This document shows, one piece after another, positions 11,957-19,955 of a stretch of DNA of 47,903 bases. Under the pieces are notes generated by a model. It did no database searches. It was not told where the DNA came from and saw only the letters and a list, made by a program, of their open reading frames with translations. Position 1 is the stretch's first letter; the number at the start of each line of letters is the position of its first letter. The stretch comes from an uncultured Bacteroidota bacterium (GTDB lineage Bacteria > Bacteroidota > Bacteroidia > Bacteroidales > F082). The DNA lies in the NCBI GenBank assembly GCA_937901015.1, contig CALCGQ010000384.1, forward strand, positions 1 through 47,903, written 5' to 3'. Made by a program: the position numbers and the translations under genes.

Positions 11957-12229
11957 TTGAAGTTATTATTATTTGATTTTGGTGCTGGAGAGATAATGCT
12001 GGTTGTACTGGCTGTTCTCCTTGTTTTTGGCCCTGGGAAGATTCCTGAAATTGCCAGAAACTTGGGGAAATTTATCAATGAAATTAAACGAGCATCGGAA
12101 GATATTAAAACGGAGATAAACCGTGAGGCTGATAGGATTGACCGTGACAAGAGGTTGGATGAATATAAAGCTTCGTTGAAAGATGAATTGGAAAGTCCAA
12201 ACGATAAATCTGAAAACCTATCTCAATAA
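11957..12229 (+). CDS. tatA: Sec-independent twin-arginine translocase TatA/TatB-type
   Basis: FGAGEIMLVVLAVLLVFGPGKIPEIARNLGKFINEIKRA. Confidence 0.88.
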   Translation: MKLLLFDFGAGEIMLVVLAVLLVFGPGKIPEIARNLGKFINEIKRASEDIKTEINREADRIDRDKRLDEYKASLKDELESPNDKSENLSQ

Positions 12230-12356: not shown

Positions 12357-14810
12357 ATGAATAAGTTGTTTTCAATTATATTGATCTTTGGTTTTTTAAT
12401 TGCGATGCCCACTGCAATGAATGCTCAAAGAAACCCTGCAAAAAGTGCCGATGAAGCATTCTCGAAGCAACAGTACTCATTGGCCATTGATAAATATAAA
12501 AAAGCATATACAAAAGTTAAAAAGAACAAAGAGGAGAGGAACAGAATCACTGCTCAGCTTGCTGAATGTTATCGATTAACAGGAAATTACAAACGTGCTG
12601 TAGCATCTTATAAAAGACTCATAAAGAATGAATTTGATAAGCGTAATCCTGAGATAATTCTGCATTATGCTAATATGCTCAAAATAACTGGCAATTATGA
12701 AGAAGCCATAAATCAGTATAATACTTATGCTGAAAGAGCTCCCGAAGATGTCCGTGGTAGGAAGGGTGCTGAAACAACGGCACTTATTGAACAATGGATC
12801 GAAAACCCTTCCAAATATGAAGTAACAAACATTAAGAAAATTAATTCCAGAGAAGCTGATTTTGCACCTTCTTATACAACAGATAATTATAATGAAATTG
12901 TATTCACCTCAACACGTGAAGGTGCTACCGGTAAAGAAACAGATAATTGGACTGATCAAAATTTTAGTGACCTCTTTATAGCTAAAATTGACCGTAAAGA
13001 TGAATGGTCTGAGCCCGTACTCTTCGATGCTACTGAGAGTATTAACAGTAATGCCAATGAGGGTGCTGCAGTTTTTAATGCTAAGTTTAACACAATCTAT
13101 TTCACACGTTGTCCCAATGACCAACAAAAAGAATCAGGTTGCCAGATCTATAAATCGAAACGTACTGGAAGAACCTGGGGAGAACCCGATATGGTTGAAA
13201 TATCAGGAATAGATACACTCTCAACAGTTGGTCAGCCAACTATTAGTGAAGGTGAACTGGTTATTTATTTTTCTGCAAACAGACGTAATGGTCTTGGAGG
13301 TAAAGATATATGGGTAGCATTCAGGGATTCAAAATCTGATGCATTTGGACGTCCAATGAATTTGGGTGATGTAATTAATACACCAGGAGATGAAATGTTT
13401 CCATTTTTAAGAAATGACACTACTTTGTTTTTTGCTTCCGATGGACATGGTGGTATGGGAGGACTTGATATTTTTGTAACAACCATCGATACTTCTGGTA
13501 GCTGGGGTGAACCAAAAAACCTTAAATATCCCATCAATTCTACATTTGATGATTTTGGGATTGTTTTCCATCCAACTGATGAATATGGATTTCTTAGTTC
13601 AAATAGAAAAGGTACTAGAGGTATGGAGGACATTTGGTATTTCATAGAGCCACCATTATTATTTTCTTTATCTGGAACAATTCGTGATGATAGAACCCTT
13701 ATGTCAATGCCCGATGTTAATGTTCAGCTAGTTGGATCAACTGGGCTATCAGTAACAACTCGTACAAATGATGAAGGTTTCTATAGCTTTGGAGAAAGTC
13801 AGTTGGAGCCCAATACAATGTATGAAGTTCTCGTTGCAAAACCGAACTACTTTAATGAAAAAGGAACATTCACAACTGTTGGTGTTGAATTTAGCAAAGA
13901 GTTCGTAAAAGACTTTAATCTACGCCCTATTCCTGCAGAGCCAATAGAATTACCTGAGATTCTCTATGATCTAGCTAAATGGGAATTAAAACCGCAATAT
14001 CAGGATTCTCTTCAAGGACTTATTCAAACTTTACGCGATAATCCAAATATAGTTGTGGAATTGGCAGCTCATACCGATGCACGTGATAGCGACGAAAGAA
14101 ATGATGTACTGTCACAACGTCGTGCACAATCAGTTGTTGACTACCTTATTATCAGAGGAATCGAGCCAGCAAGACTTGTTGCAAAAGGATATGGAGAGAG
14201 AATTCCTTTATCACTTAAAAAGGATATTATCCGTGATGGCTTTCCATTCACAGAAGGTACAACAATGGATGAAGCTTTCATTGAATCATTAACTAACAAC
14301 AGCGAAAAAGAAGCAGCTCATCAGCTAAACCGTAGAACAGAATTCAGAGTATTAAGAAAAGATTACGTTCCTTCGTCAACAAACATTGATCTTGCTACAA
14401 TTAATATAGCGATCAATCCTGAAGATAATGCCATAGTGTTTACTGAGGCGCCCGGAACCGGAACCTATATTTCCATCTGTATAATTAATGGATACAATGA
14501 AGAGTTTGCATTCGATCGTAGTTCTGACCCTATGATATCACTTGATAAAGCAATGGATTTATTAAAATGGGGTGCTATAAGTAAAGAAGACTTTGAAGGT
14601 GACCCTGAAAGGGTACTCGCTAACAACACAATTGCTGATAAATCTTATGTTACCATAAAGGAGATTAACATTGCTAATCAGAAAGTTGAGAATATTAAGG
14701 TACAGGTAAGGCATAAGCTTAACTACGGTTTGGTATTCGGAGACAGGTTAATGAAGCAATTCGGTAAGTATTCCTATAATGTTAAAACTCATAAATTAAC
14801 TATTGAGTAA
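12357..14810 (+). CDS. PorE-like OmpA family protein (TPR + PD40 propeller + carboxypeptidase-regulatory-like + OmpA) with a C-terminal retropepsin-like domain
   Basis: TPRs (AKSADEAFSKQQYSLAIDKYKKAY), PD40 blades (EGELVIYFSANRRNGLGGKDIW), SLSGTIRDDRT..., OmpA motif ELAAHTDARDSDERNDVLSQRRAQSVVDYLI. Confidence 0.88.
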   Translation: MNKLFSIILIFGFLIAMPTAMNAQRNPAKSADEAFSKQQYSLAIDKYKKAYTKVKKNKEERNRITAQLAECYRLTGNYKRAVASYKRLIKNEFDKRNPEIILHYANMLKITGNYEEAINQYNTYAERAPEDVRGRKGAETTALIEQWIENPSKYEVTNIKKINSREADFAPSYTTDNYNEIVFTSTREGATGKETDNWTDQNFSDLFIAKIDRKDEWSEPVLFDATESINSNANEGAAVFNAKFNTIYFTRCPNDQQKESGCQIYKSKRTGRTWGEPDMVEISGIDTLSTVGQPTISEGELVIYFSANRRNGLGGKDIWVAFRDSKSDAFGRPMNLGDVINTPGDEMFPFLRNDTTLFFASDGHGGMGGLDIFVTTIDTSGSWGEPKNLKYPINSTFDDFGIVFHPTDEYGFLSSNRKGTRGMEDIWYFIEPPLLFSLSGTIRDDRTLMSMPDVNVQLVGSTGLSVTTRTNDEGFYSFGESQLEPNTMYEVLVAKPNYFNEKGTFTTVGVEFSKEFVKDFNLRPIPAEPIELPEILYDLAKWELKPQYQDSLQGLIQTLRDNPNIVVELAAHTDARDSDERNDVLSQRRAQSVVDYLIIRGIEPARLVAKGYGERIPLSLKKDIIRDGFPFTEGTTMDEAFIESLTNNSEKEAAHQLNRRTEFRVLRKDYVPSSTNIDLATINIAINPEDNAIVFTEAPGTGTYISICIINGYNEEFAFDRSSDPMISLDKAMDLLKWGAISKEDFEGDPERVLANNTIADKSYVTIKEINIANQKVENIKVQVRHKLNYGLVFGDRLMKQFGKYSYNVKTHKLTIE

Positions 14811-14833: not shown

Positions 14834-14872
14834 AATGACTAATCTCCAATGACTAATCACCAATGACTAATG
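14834..14872. repeat. Three 14-bp-period tandem copies of AATGACTAAT(C/G)
   Basis: Copies at 14834-14844, 14848-14858 and 14862-14872; the last overlaps the purM start codon. Confidence 0.85.
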
Positions 14873-16039
14873 AGTAATAACCAATCAAGATATATGCAAC
14901 GAGGTGTAAGTGCCTCCAAAGAAGATGTGCATGCAGCTATTGCCAACTTGGATAAGGGTATTTTTCCAAATGCCTTTTGCAAAGTAATTCCTGACATATT
15001 AGGTGGAGATGCTGATTATTGCAATATAATGCACGCTGATGGTGCTGGAACAAAATCATCTTTAGCATACATGTATTGGAAAGAAACTGGTAATCTAGAT
15101 GTATGGAGAGGTATTGCTCAGGATGCCATTGTAATGAATCTTGATGATCTACTTTGTGTAGGAGTGATTGATGATATACTGTTATCATCAACTATTGGAA
15201 GAAATAAAAACCTAATTCCAGGAAGTGTAATTGGAGCCGTTATTAATGGAACTGAAGAGTTTCTTGAGAATATGAGATCCCTTGGAATTGGAATTTATCT
15301 AACCGGAGGTGAAACTGCCGATGTGGGTGATCTCGTACGCACAATGATCGTTGATTCTACTGTTACTGCCAGAATTAAACGTAAGGATGTTATTGAGACA
15401 AATATCCAACCTGGCGATGTTATTGTAGGACTATCATCCTATGGTAAAGCTACCTACGAAGATACATACAATGGTGGCATGGGTAGTAATGGACTTACTT
15501 CAGCTCGACACGATGTTTTTGGTAAGGAACTGGCAGTTAGGTATCCTGACAGTTTTGATCCTATCGTACCAAGTGATCTGGTATATTCGGGCAATATGAA
15601 ACTAACTCAACCAAGTGAAGTAGAAGGTATTGATGTTGGTAGTTTGGTCCTCTCTCCTACCAGGACATATGCACCAGTGATAAAAGTTATACTCGACCGA
15701 TTCCGTGATCAAGTCAATGGAATTATTCATTGTTCAGGAGGAGCCCAAACTAAAGTTCTTCATTTTATTGAGAACCTTCATATCATAAAGAACAATATGT
15801 TTCCCATCCCTCCATTATTTAAGCTTATCCAAGAACAATCAGGCACAAGTTGGGAAGAAATGTATAAAGTCTTCAATATGGGACATAGGATGGAGTTATA
15901 TGTACCTGAAAATATTAGCAAAGATATTATTGAAATATCACAATCCTTTAATATTGATGCTAAAATTATTGGAAGAGTTAGTCAATCTGACAAAAAGCGA
16001 CTTACCATTGATTCAGAATTTGGTCTATTTGAATACTAA
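14870..16039 (+). CDS. purM: Phosphoribosylformylglycinamidine cyclo-ligase (AIR synthase)
   Basis: YMQRGVSASKEDVHAAI, HADGAGTKSSLAYMYWKETG, IAQDAIVMNLDDLLCVG, GGETADVGDLVRT. Confidence 0.92.
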   Translation: MSNNQSRYMQRGVSASKEDVHAAIANLDKGIFPNAFCKVIPDILGGDADYCNIMHADGAGTKSSLAYMYWKETGNLDVWRGIAQDAIVMNLDDLLCVGVIDDILLSSTIGRNKNLIPGSVIGAVINGTEEFLENMRSLGIGIYLTGGETADVGDLVRTMIVDSTVTARIKRKDVIETNIQPGDVIVGLSSYGKATYEDTYNGGMGSNGLTSARHDVFGKELAVRYPDSFDPIVPSDLVYSGNMKLTQPSEVEGIDVGSLVLSPTRTYAPVIKVILDRFRDQVNGIIHCSGGAQTKVLHFIENLHIIKNNMFPIPPLFKLIQEQSGTSWEEMYKVFNMGHRMELYVPENISKDIIEISQSFNIDAKIIGRVSQSDKKRLTIDSEFGLFEY

Positions 16040-16142: not shown

Positions 16143-19100
16143 ATGGACTTTATGAATTATTTTAAATATATATCTCATTTTATATTATTTACACTGATAA
16201 CTACATCTACATTTCTTGTGGGGCAGAAATCAAACTATAATATAGAGCTAACTAAACAAGATTCAATTTATTCTGCTAATCTACCTATACTAAAGGTACC
16301 AGAAGGTTATAATAAACGCATTGCCTTACCATCTGAGTTAGACAATTCGATTCTTCCATTTATGAGGCCAGCCTTTAACCAACAAGGCTATTGGAACTGT
16401 GGTCAGTGTGCAGGTGTTGCATATAATTTTACATATGAAATAAACTTGGCTCGTGGAGTAATTGGTGATTGGATAGTAAACCAATACTCACAAAACTTTA
16501 CCTACAATTTCATGAATAGGGCCGGTGATTATGGAGTAAGCTATTTCAATAGTTTTGAAGCTATAAAAGCCTGTGGAAATCCAAATTTGGAAGACTATGG
16601 TGGAATGTACAACGTTTTGGGAAAAGGATGGAAATCAAGTTATTCATTGTATGAAAACGCAATGAGGAATAGGATAGTTGATGTATATGCCATTGATGTT
16701 AGTACTCCTGAAGGTTTAGAAACCCTAAAATACTGGTTACTTGACCACATGAATGGTTCTGAATATGGTGGTCTAGCAAATTTCTATTTTGGTTGGGGTT
16801 TCTCAAGTAACCTACCTCCTGAAAGTCCTGACTCAGGATTTCAAGTTGTTCTAGAATCACACCCCATAGCAACACATGCAATGACTATTGTAGGTTTTAA
16901 TGATTCAGTGAGATATGATGTTAATGGTGATGGTAAATTTACCAACAATATTGATCTTAATGAGGATGGTATTCTAGACATGAAAGATTGGGAAATTGGA
17001 GCTGTTAAATATATAAATAGCACAACATACGACGATGGTATCGGATATATGATGTATCGTGTATTGGCATTAGAAAGTGGACATGGTGGTATCTGGAATC
17101 AGCAAGTACACGTATTAAAAGTTGATGCAGAATATATACCTACTGCAAGTGTAAGAGTGAAGCTAAGGCATAATTCCAGAGAAAAAATTAAGCTAATTGC
17201 AGGTATTTCAACGAATTTAGATGATAATTATCCACAACATACAATGGATTTTCCAATTTTCAATTTTCAGGGAGGTGACTACTATATGCAAGGACTTGAG
17301 TTAGATGAAACATATAAAGATATCGAGTTGGCATTAGACATTAGCCCCTTATTTAGTTATTTAGAAGATGGACAGGAAGCAAAATTCTTTATTCAGGTGG
17401 TAGAAAATGATAAGGATAATACGGGAGAAGGTGAAGTACTTTACTATAGTCTCGTGATGGAATTGGATACATTGAACGAAATAGTTTGCCAACAAGTACC
17501 TGTTGATATTACAAACAACGCTATCACAACTTTACAATTAACTAATAATAACTCATTTGATAAAGTAAAAATAATTACGAATGATTTAGCTAAGGTTGAA
17601 GCAGGAATAATATCAGAATTTCAATTGGAGGCTCAAGGAGGTACCGAGCCTTATAAGTGGAGTATTGAAAATCAGTACAACCTGAATGAAGTTAACAATA
17701 GTTTTTCTGAAATAAACCAGACTAAACTTGAGTTTGAAAATAATTATGAAGCATCAACCAGTTTACAATTACCATTTGATTTCCCTTTCTATGGAGACAC
17801 TCTTGATAGTATAACAGTATTTATTGATGGGTTTATTATGTTTGAAGATAAACCATACCCCTACCCATATTTTACCGGTGAAGAATCTATCATTAAAACA
17901 CATAAAATGATTGCACCCTTCATATCAAATCTACTATTGCTAGAAGCAAAAGATGATGGTGTTTGGATTGATAGCAATAGCGAAAGAATCATAATAAGAT
18001 GGAAAGCATCAAGCGAATATTCCTGGGGAGATGAGGTGAATTTCAGTTTAACTTTACGCAAAGATGGAGGCATCGAAACCCATTATGGATCAATGAAATT
18101 TCCAGAGGAGATACATTGGGCATCGGGAGTTTCAGAGGGTGACAAGACGAATTACACTTTGTTAAATACAAATCAGAATCACGAAGAATTAACATACTCA
18201 TCCTTTTCTTATTTAAAATCAAATTTAATACCTGAAGTATTATCCATAACCGAAAACGGTTTGGTTTCTATTATGATAAATGAATCTATCAATAATTATC
18301 CTTTTGTTGTTCAGGTGAAAGATAGAAATGGAATAAGAGATTCAAAAGTATTCAACCAAACGGCTTCTAACTTTTCCGTTAATTTTCAGATAAACAACAA
18401 TGATAAATATGTTGATTATGATGAAATTTCATCAATAAATATGGATATTGAAAATACTTCAAACAAGAATTATAATAATGTCTTCATAAGACTTCATAGT
18501 ACGGATGAATTCTTAACACTTAGTGACTCTATCATTCAAGTGGGTAATTTGGATGCTGGTGAATACATTGAGATTAGTGAAGCTGCAACATTTTCATTTT
18601 CAACAGATGTACCTGACAGGTACAACTCAACCATTGAATGCGAGTTAATTACTGATAATGATATGCTTAGATCAAAAATAACGACTACAGTAAACGCACC
18701 TGAATTTAGGTTTTTATCAAAACAAATACTTGATGGCGATGATGGTGTACTATACCCAGGCGAAACTTCCACTATCAAATTATTAATTCAGAATACAGGT
18801 CATGCCATATCATCAAATGCATTTTCCGTACTTGGTAGTGAGTACAACAAAATTTATATTGATTTTGAAAGGTTAGAATTGGAAAATTTATACCCTGGAG
18901 ACACAATATCAGTATCGTACATTATAGCAGCTAAATTTGCTGTTCCCATGGGGACGTTGGCTACTCTGGATCTTGATATCTATTTGAACAACAAATTAGT
19001 TAATAAGATGACAACTGATATTAGGCTGGGACATATCCCCGTTCTGATATTAGACAGGGATCCCGACTTAACATCAGGTCTACAACTACGCTCAATGCTA

Positions 19101-19955
19101 GATGAGCTTGGATTACAAAATACTTTAACATCAACATTAAATGTAGATCTGAATAATTACTTATCAGTTTTTGTATGCATGGGTGGATTATTTAGTAATT
19201 ATACATTACAGGAAAAAGATTGGGTATTATTATCTGACTACCTCAACTCATCAGGAAATATGTATATGGAGGGTAGAACAATTTGGGGAAGCCCACAATA
19301 TCCAATCATCAATAACATGTTTAACATAAGAGCTGAACAACCTAGTTATTACTATCCTCTCGATACAGTTATTGGTGTTAATGATCTTTACACAAAAAAT
19401 ATGATGTTTGAGGTGAATGATGAAACACCTTATATAAATTATTTCATCCATCCAAAAGAAGGAGCTACCACTCTATTAAAAACCCAAACTCATGATAGCT
19501 CAGGTGTTACAATTGCTTACGACGAAGGCAGTTATAAGACCATAGGTTCGAGCCTGACAATTAACTCTTTTGTGGATACTGATTTAATAAGTACCAAAAA
19601 GAATTATTTACTTAGTATATTGGATTTCTTTGACTTAAAGAAATACATTTATGTGGATATAACTGAAAATTTTTCACCCTCGCTTTTAGATTTGGAAATA
19701 TATCCAAATCCTGCTAGTAGTTCGGTTACATTTAGTATTTCTAATAAGTTGAGTTCCGAGTCTTTTATCCAGATATTAGATCTGAATGGGATGATAATTT
19801 ATGAGAAACATATTACTGATACAAGAACAACTAGTTCCATAACAATTCCATGGGACGGGACTCATCCAAATGGAAGAAGAGCTTCACCGGGTTTATACCT
19901 AATAAGATATACTTCAGGTGAAGATGCAATCTCGAAAAAACTGATAATCAAGTAG
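16143..19955 (+). CDS. Papain-like (C1) cysteine protease, multidomain, T9SS type A sorting domain
   Basis: NQQGYWNCGQCAGVAYNF (Cys), ATHAMTIVGFND (His), VKYINSTTYDDGIGYMMYR (Asn); C-terminal YPNPASSSVTFSIS...GLYLIRYTSGEDAISKKLIIK. Confidence 0.8.
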   Translation: MDFMNYFKYISHFILFTLITTSTFLVGQKSNYNIELTKQDSIYSANLPILKVPEGYNKRIALPSELDNSILPFMRPAFNQQGYWNCGQCAGVAYNFTYEINLARGVIGDWIVNQYSQNFTYNFMNRAGDYGVSYFNSFEAIKACGNPNLEDYGGMYNVLGKGWKSSYSLYENAMRNRIVDVYAIDVSTPEGLETLKYWLLDHMNGSEYGGLANFYFGWGFSSNLPPESPDSGFQVVLESHPIATHAMTIVGFNDSVRYDVNGDGKFTNNIDLNEDGILDMKDWEIGAVKYINSTTYDDGIGYMMYRVLALESGHGGIWNQQVHVLKVDAEYIPTASVRVKLRHNSREKIKLIAGISTNLDDNYPQHTMDFPIFNFQGGDYYMQGLELDETYKDIELALDISPLFSYLEDGQEAKFFIQVVENDKDNTGEGEVLYYSLVMELDTLNEIVCQQVPVDITNNAITTLQLTNNNSFDKVKIITNDLAKVEAGIISEFQLEAQGGTEPYKWSIENQYNLNEVNNSFSEINQTKLEFENNYEASTSLQLPFDFPFYGDTLDSITVFIDGFIMFEDKPYPYPYFTGEESIIKTHKMIAPFISNLLLLEAKDDGVWIDSNSERIIIRWKASSEYSWGDEVNFSLTLRKDGGIETHYGSMKFPEEIHWASGVSEGDKTNYTLLNTNQNHEELTYSSFSYLKSNLIPEVLSITENGLVSIMINESINNYPFVVQVKDRNGIRDSKVFNQTASNFSVNFQINNNDKYVDYDEISSINMDIENTSNKNYNNVFIRLHSTDEFLTLSDSIIQVGNLDAGEYIEISEAATFSFSTDVPDRYNSTIECELITDNDMLRSKITTTVNAPEFRFLSKQILDGDDGVLYPGETSTIKLLIQNTGHAISSNAFSVLGSEYNKIYIDFERLELENLYPGDTISVSYIIAAKFAVPMGTLATLDLDIYLNNKLVNKMTTDIRLGHIPVLILDRDPDLTSGLQLRSMLDELGLQNTLTSTLNVDLNNYLSVFVCMGGLFSNYTLQEKDWVLLSDYLNSSGNMYMEGRTIWGSPQYPIINNMFNIRAEQPSYYYPLDTVIGVNDLYTKNMMFEVNDETPYINYFIHPKEGATTLLKTQTHDSSGVTIAYDEGSYKTIGSSLTINSFVDTDLISTKKNYLLSILDFFDLKKYIYVDITENFSPSLLDLEIYPNPASSSVTFSISNKLSSESFIQILDLNGMIIYEKHITDTRTTSSITIPWDGTHPNGRRASPGLYLIRYTSGEDAISKKLIIK
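16917..16993 (+). other. Tandem Ca-binding (dockerin/EF-hand-like) loops inside the C1 peptidase domain
   Basis: DVNGDGKFTNNIDLNEDGILDMKDWE: DxNxDGxxxxxD and DxNxDGxxDxxDW patterns. Confidence 0.65.

Follow-up and report, generated by a model that had tools for sequence, protein, structure and literature searches.

A PorE-type OmpA protein encoded in the window (the whole 47,903-nucleotide stretch of Bacteroidales DNA that was analyzed) ends in an additional domain that almost certainly has a retropepsin-like (clan AA) fold with a dead active site. This tail domain is under strong purifying selection. Its history appears to be one gain, within a single PorE clade, and two or more losses. From its sequence, we infer that the tail is probably a non-catalytic interaction module.

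The porE-type gene and its domains

The features of the gene and of its neighbors are given below with their coordinates in the window, strand and supporting matches.

11957..12229, + strand, tatA-like gene, conserved upstream neighbor (Pfam TatA_B_E, synteny)
12357..14810, + strand, porE-type gene, a single ORF of 817 aa with five domains
12357..12425, + strand, signal peptide-like N terminus, residues about 1-23, without a lipobox Cys (by reading of the sequence)
12447..12761, + strand, TPR repeats, residues about 31-135 (Pfam TPR models)
12834..13646, + strand, beta-propeller region, residues about 160-430 (Pfam PD40 at 336-374)
13665..13862, + strand, carboxypeptidase-regulatory-like domain (CRD), residues 437-502 (Pfam CarboxypepD_reg, E 1.2e-5, under the curated cut-off)
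13977..14219, + strand, OmpA peptidoglycan-binding domain, residues 541-621 (Pfam OmpA, E 1.8e-15)
14355..14432, + strand, linker, residues 667-692, with conserved [RK]D[FY]VP and NPxDN (column conservation)
14433..14807, + strand, pseudo-retropepsin domain, residues 693-817, 125 residues (profile, PDB-sequence, AF2 and Foldseek matches)
14514..14525, + strand, former catalytic loop, D720-R-S-S where free relatives have D-[TS]-G-[AS] (alignment)
14535..14600, + strand, helix and insert ISLDKAMDLLKWGAISKEDFEG, residues 727-748, also found in the free DTG family, with higher conservation in PorE tails
14616..14645, + strand, flap-equivalent segment LANNTIADKS, residues 754-763 (alignment with free relatives)
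14727..14747, + strand, psi-loop equivalent around V-F-G, residues 791-797; L-L-G in free relatives
14793..14807, + strand, C-terminal strand, residues 813-817, at the dimer-platform position of retropepsins (strand 147-150 of the tail in AF2)
14870..16039, + strand, purM-like gene, conserved downstream neighbor (TIGR00878, 95.8 bits, under its cut-off; synteny)
16143-19955, + strand, protein of 1270 aa bearing a T9SS type A sorting domain, two genes downstream of the porE-type gene

The NCBIfam model NF052230 (T9SS_PorE) matched residues 13-667 with 570.6 bits, which is short of the curated cut-off of 600. This protein is the top PorE scorer of its genome, where the runner-up reaches 283. Its TPR, propeller, CRD and OmpA domains (Pfam, NCBIfam) follow one another in the same order as in PorE (PG1058) of the Porphyromonas gingivalis type IX secretion system (T9SS). 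The match and the domain order support the preliminary description, which had named a PorE-type OmpA protein as the carrier of the tail. The propeller limits were set from the PorE profile and the layout of P. gingivalis PorE (PMC7192894). That PorE is a lipoprotein of four domains which binds peptidoglycan through its OmpA domain and ends at residue 668 (PMC7192894). The window protein, in contrast, has a fifth domain, scores under the NF052230 cut-off and lacks the lipobox, as no Cys is found at the end of its signal peptide. This Cys is also absent in several tailless relatives.

Retropepsin fold of the tail

The 115 residues that the preliminary description had assigned to a retropepsin-like tail were found exactly as quoted at 14463-14807 (+), in a single open frame with no stops. 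The whole tail (residues 693-817) had no Pfam or NCBIfam match, the best being DUF7489 at E 0.083, and standard annotation is, therefore, blind to the domain. As a single query in translated genome searches, the window tail reached two free-standing DTGAT/DTGAS proteins without OmpA in two other genomes (E 2.1e-9 and 1.0e-7). These two proteins match gag-asp_proteas PF13975 (E 2.7e-15 and 6.5e-19), and one divergent PorE tail, L061, itself matches PF13975 (E 0.0012). Alignment of the tail profile to the two free proteins with hhalign gave a probability of 99.5% and E 1.8e-22 over 116 columns, and showed a helical insert after the active-site loop to be common to both sides. The best PDB sequence matches of the tail profile were chains of APRc from Rickettsia conorii (E 0.006), with most of the domain aligned.

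An AlphaFold2 model of the tail, built from 31 natural sequences, had a pLDDT of 83.3 and a pTM of 0.76. Foldseek with this model returned APRc first (3.3e-6, probability 1.00), then Ddi1 and HIV protease. The TM-scores against APRc were 0.49-0.67, so the likeness to APRc is at the level of the fold and not of detail. In a second model, of OmpA plus tail, the linker had a pLDDT below 50 and OmpA was poorly modeled, while the secondary structure of the tail was unchanged; linker residues 667-692 were predicted to be disordered in both AF2 models. The retropepsin-like fold first suggested from the letters was thus borne out by the PDB sequence match and by the structure prediction and PDB comparison proposed along with it, which found retropepsin topology with APRc as the best match.

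Three kinds of known proteins can be set beside the tail. The nearest relatives are free-standing Bacteroidota PF13975 proteins with DTGAS (L070, L142, L173), which have the same helical insert. In contrast to the tail, the free PF13975 proteins have an intact D[TS]G and no PorE part, and many of them start like lipoproteins or exported proteins. APRc (RC1339; PDB 5c9b, 5c9d, 5c9f) was the best PDB match both by sequence profile and by fold. It is annotated as an active retropepsin-like protease, has no OmpA part and is about 17% identical to the tail. The RloA proteases of Pseudomonas, compared with the tail by description, are exported retropepsin-like proteins that form homodimers in the crystal and in solution, but they are active DTG enzymes, unlike the tail (PMC12239564). 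Separately, DTG domains that look active were seen by eye in other Bacteroidota, linked to TPR-like repeats in L070, L148 and L145 and to a PPIase-like protein in L176.

Loss of the catalytic motif

An alignment of tails, proposed earlier as a check for copies that retain DTG, found this motif in none of about 165 PorE-fused tails, and D-S-G in one. D[TS]G is kept in 24 of the 25 relatives that are not fused to PorE. Two of the tails, L274 and L277, were classed with the PorE-fused set by their long frames (903 and 867 aa) and their likeness to L147 and L149, rather than by an OmpA domain in the short stretch read. In the window protein, the sequence D720-R-S-S-D was confirmed at the position first described, so that D720-R-S stands where an active retropepsin has D[TS]G, and the claim that the catalytic motif had been lost holds against the D-[TS]-G-[AS] of the free relatives. 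The further claim that one Asp is kept is true of the window protein and does not extend to the family: of the 118 tails in the first set, 81 have Asp and the others N, E, S, G, A or further residues. At the psi-loop, the expected hydrophobic-hydrophobic-Gly is found as V-F-G at the L-L-G position, and it is looser across the whole tail family.

The lone tail with D-S-G is L043 (Y-D-S-G), which is nested among dead relatives. These read D-R-[TGN] and share a one-residue deletion with L043, which is one substitution away from D-R-G. We read the D-S-G of L043 as a probable chance single substitution in a dead lineage. Free-standing L175, from another family of the class, reads DTL, which may mean that the motif was lost a second time, independently.

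Spread, origin and selection

The tail is present in 66 of 100 relatives, nearly throughout the window's family and in several further families of the order. Among 297 genomes from the whole phylum, a sampling that was even but partial, none outside the order showed a tailed PorE; the collection scan for tails used a 15-row subset of a 36-row alignment. Over more than a hundred genomes, the frame is open in nearly all tail copies. For 12 gene pairs, dN/dS of the pseudo-protease part was about 0.04 (range near 0 to 0.08, on those pairs with non-saturated synonymous change), similar to that of the TPR, propeller and OmpA domains. Mean identity to the window protein was 68% for the tail and 71-81% for the other folded domains. 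The word degenerate, used in the preliminary description, thus fits the active site and not the domain as a whole, which is under selection. In L020, the L064 region of G064:C44 and L088, the porE gene has in-frame stops or a truncated frame, in or close to the tail; these are either assembly errors or broken genes.

In a tree of the tails built on 124 columns, with the motif excluded, 60 PorE tails are split from 14 free proteins by a single branch (96/97), the free-standing set being the proteins reached with the tail profile, outside which more distant free relatives fall. In a tree of the PorE core, the tailed proteins form one clade (SH-aLRT 99) with tailless members inside it, of which two groups are nested. 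The simplest account of this pattern is a single gain and at least two losses. Repeated independent fusions were rejected on the single branch in the tail tree and the single tailed clade in the core tree.

Several tailless orthologs inside the tailed clade (L197-L200, L205) carry long low-complexity tails, rich in P/T/K or acidic, in place of the pseudo-retropepsin. L137, L138 and L066 are second, divergent tailed PorE copies. Their tails group together, apart from those of the main copies, and this points to an old duplication.

Tailed and tailless PorE at the locus

Among 198 Bacteroidales genomes, a tailed PorE was present in 54 and a tailless match of more than 600 bits in 106, with no genome having both; the lists of 54 and 106 genomes were collated by hand from tables. 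The exclusivity stems in part from common ancestry among the genomes, so that its Fisher p-value is not to be taken at face value. The tailed protein replaces the high-scoring tailless PorE of other genomes. In nearly all of 33 loci of the family, the tailed gene lies between tatA and purM. The same order, tatA-porE-purM, was found for the tailless orthologs L220, L222 and L223, and L217 and L224 adjoin purM. The most canonical of the lipoprotein PorEs (L209-L215) have another neighborhood within the stretch read.

The window's genome also encodes SprA/Sov and three PorP-family proteins; PorP is an outer-membrane protein to which PorE binds in P. gingivalis (PMC9143113). The 1270-aa sorting-domain protein has QGYWNCGQCAGVAYNF near residue 65 and HAMTIVGF later, which looks like a papain-type Cys/His pair. 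Its N-terminal part had no significant Pfam match.

Where conservation moved

The conservation of PorE tails was compared with that of the free relatives at equal sample size, the free set being small (14 rows). Information at the catalytic loop was 3.49 bits in the free relatives and 1.67 in the PorE tails, and at the psi-loop it was 3.02 and 1.97 bits. Residues 721-725 vary almost freely in the PorE tails. Relative conservation rose from 1.03 to 1.21 at the C-terminal strand and from 0.99 to 1.13 at the helix and insert. It was held at the flap-equivalent segment (0.98 to 1.11), so the flap face may still have a role. With the drop at the two loops and the rise at the strand and insert, the main constraint lies on the terminal strand and the insert and not on the cleft. 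Retention of a peptide cleft is thus disfavored, and the pattern fits better if the C-terminal strand platform and the helical insert are what is used. The platform of retropepsins also includes the N-terminal strand, which showed no rise (0.95 to 0.90); this weakens the dimer reading.

The same data bear on the explanation that the dead cleft was kept as a peptide-binding groove, holding a periplasmic segment of a T9SS part or cargo uncut. The fold binds peptides by nature and the flap conservation would fit such a groove, but the sharply lower conservation of the cleft-lining loop and psi-loop and the near freedom of residues 721-725 make it unlikely. Another possible explanation, to which we give much less weight, has the tail pairing with an active, free-standing retropepsin in its own cell, so as to regulate that enzyme or localize it at the wall. 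Free DTG relatives do occur in some of the same genomes (e.g., G014, G062, G132, G165 and G230), but the same profile finds no free relative in most genomes with a tailed PorE, and the window's genome (assembly about 85% complete) yields only a distant two-domain DTG protein. This protein, L107 (G000:C161:4965-5198), is lipoprotein-like, has two DTG aspartyl protease domains and lies at a contig end.

Continued activity as an aspartic protease, by D720 without Thr-Gly, could be argued from the Asp kept in the window protein and from the Y-D-S-G of L043. However, about 31% of PorE tails have another residue in place of Asp, practically none keeps the T/S-G pair, and the deletion and D-R-[TGN] motifs around L043 mark a dead lineage, so activity is extremely unlikely. 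That the domain was lost at least twice, with low-complexity tails instead in several tailless orthologs, is what a neutral, functionless remnant of an old fusion would give; the dN/dS near that of the other domains and the widely open frame render this highly improbable. The absence of a direct Pfam match for the window tail and the moderate TM-scores would allow an unrelated beta domain that merely resembles a retropepsin, but sequence, profile and fold comparisons all reach retropepsins first, leaving this idea hardly credible.

Proposed function

The pattern is that of a single-domain clan AA protease, captured once from a Bacteroidota protease family, which was attached to PorE after the OmpA domain and lost its catalytic motif. 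Under the preferred reading of an interaction module, the pseudo-retropepsin would sit at the peptidoglycan-bound (wall) end of PorE, where its C-terminal strand platform and helical insert would join PorE to a partner. Bacterial retropepsins form homodimers, and the terminal strand is part of their dimer platform (PMC12239564). The partner would most likely be a second PorE, because the natural assembly of this fold is a homodimer, and otherwise a hetero-partner. PorE would then act as a two-handed clamp between the outer-membrane parts of the T9SS and the wall. PorE-PorE pairing through the tail specifically is a tentative proposal, which we hold with less than even confidence. A point against any interaction module is that the domain was lost in some lineages and, hence, is dispensable there.

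Among open-licence papers, no description was found of a pseudo-retropepsin family that has become a permanent domain in a component of a secretion system, and none joined the T9SS with a retropepsin, or with an aspartyl protease and OmpA. The tail adds a fifth PorE domain across dozens of Bacteroidales families and goes with PorE scores near or under the curated cut-off. It is a clean case in which a protease was captured once, lost its catalytic activity and was put to lasting new use. T9SS work gains a natural comparison between PorE with and without the tail at one locus. It is possible, though doubtful at present, that in a large part of the Bacteroidales the dead captured retropepsin serves as a built-in dimerization clamp that pairs PorE at the peptidoglycan and so would set T9SS geometry or wall attachment.
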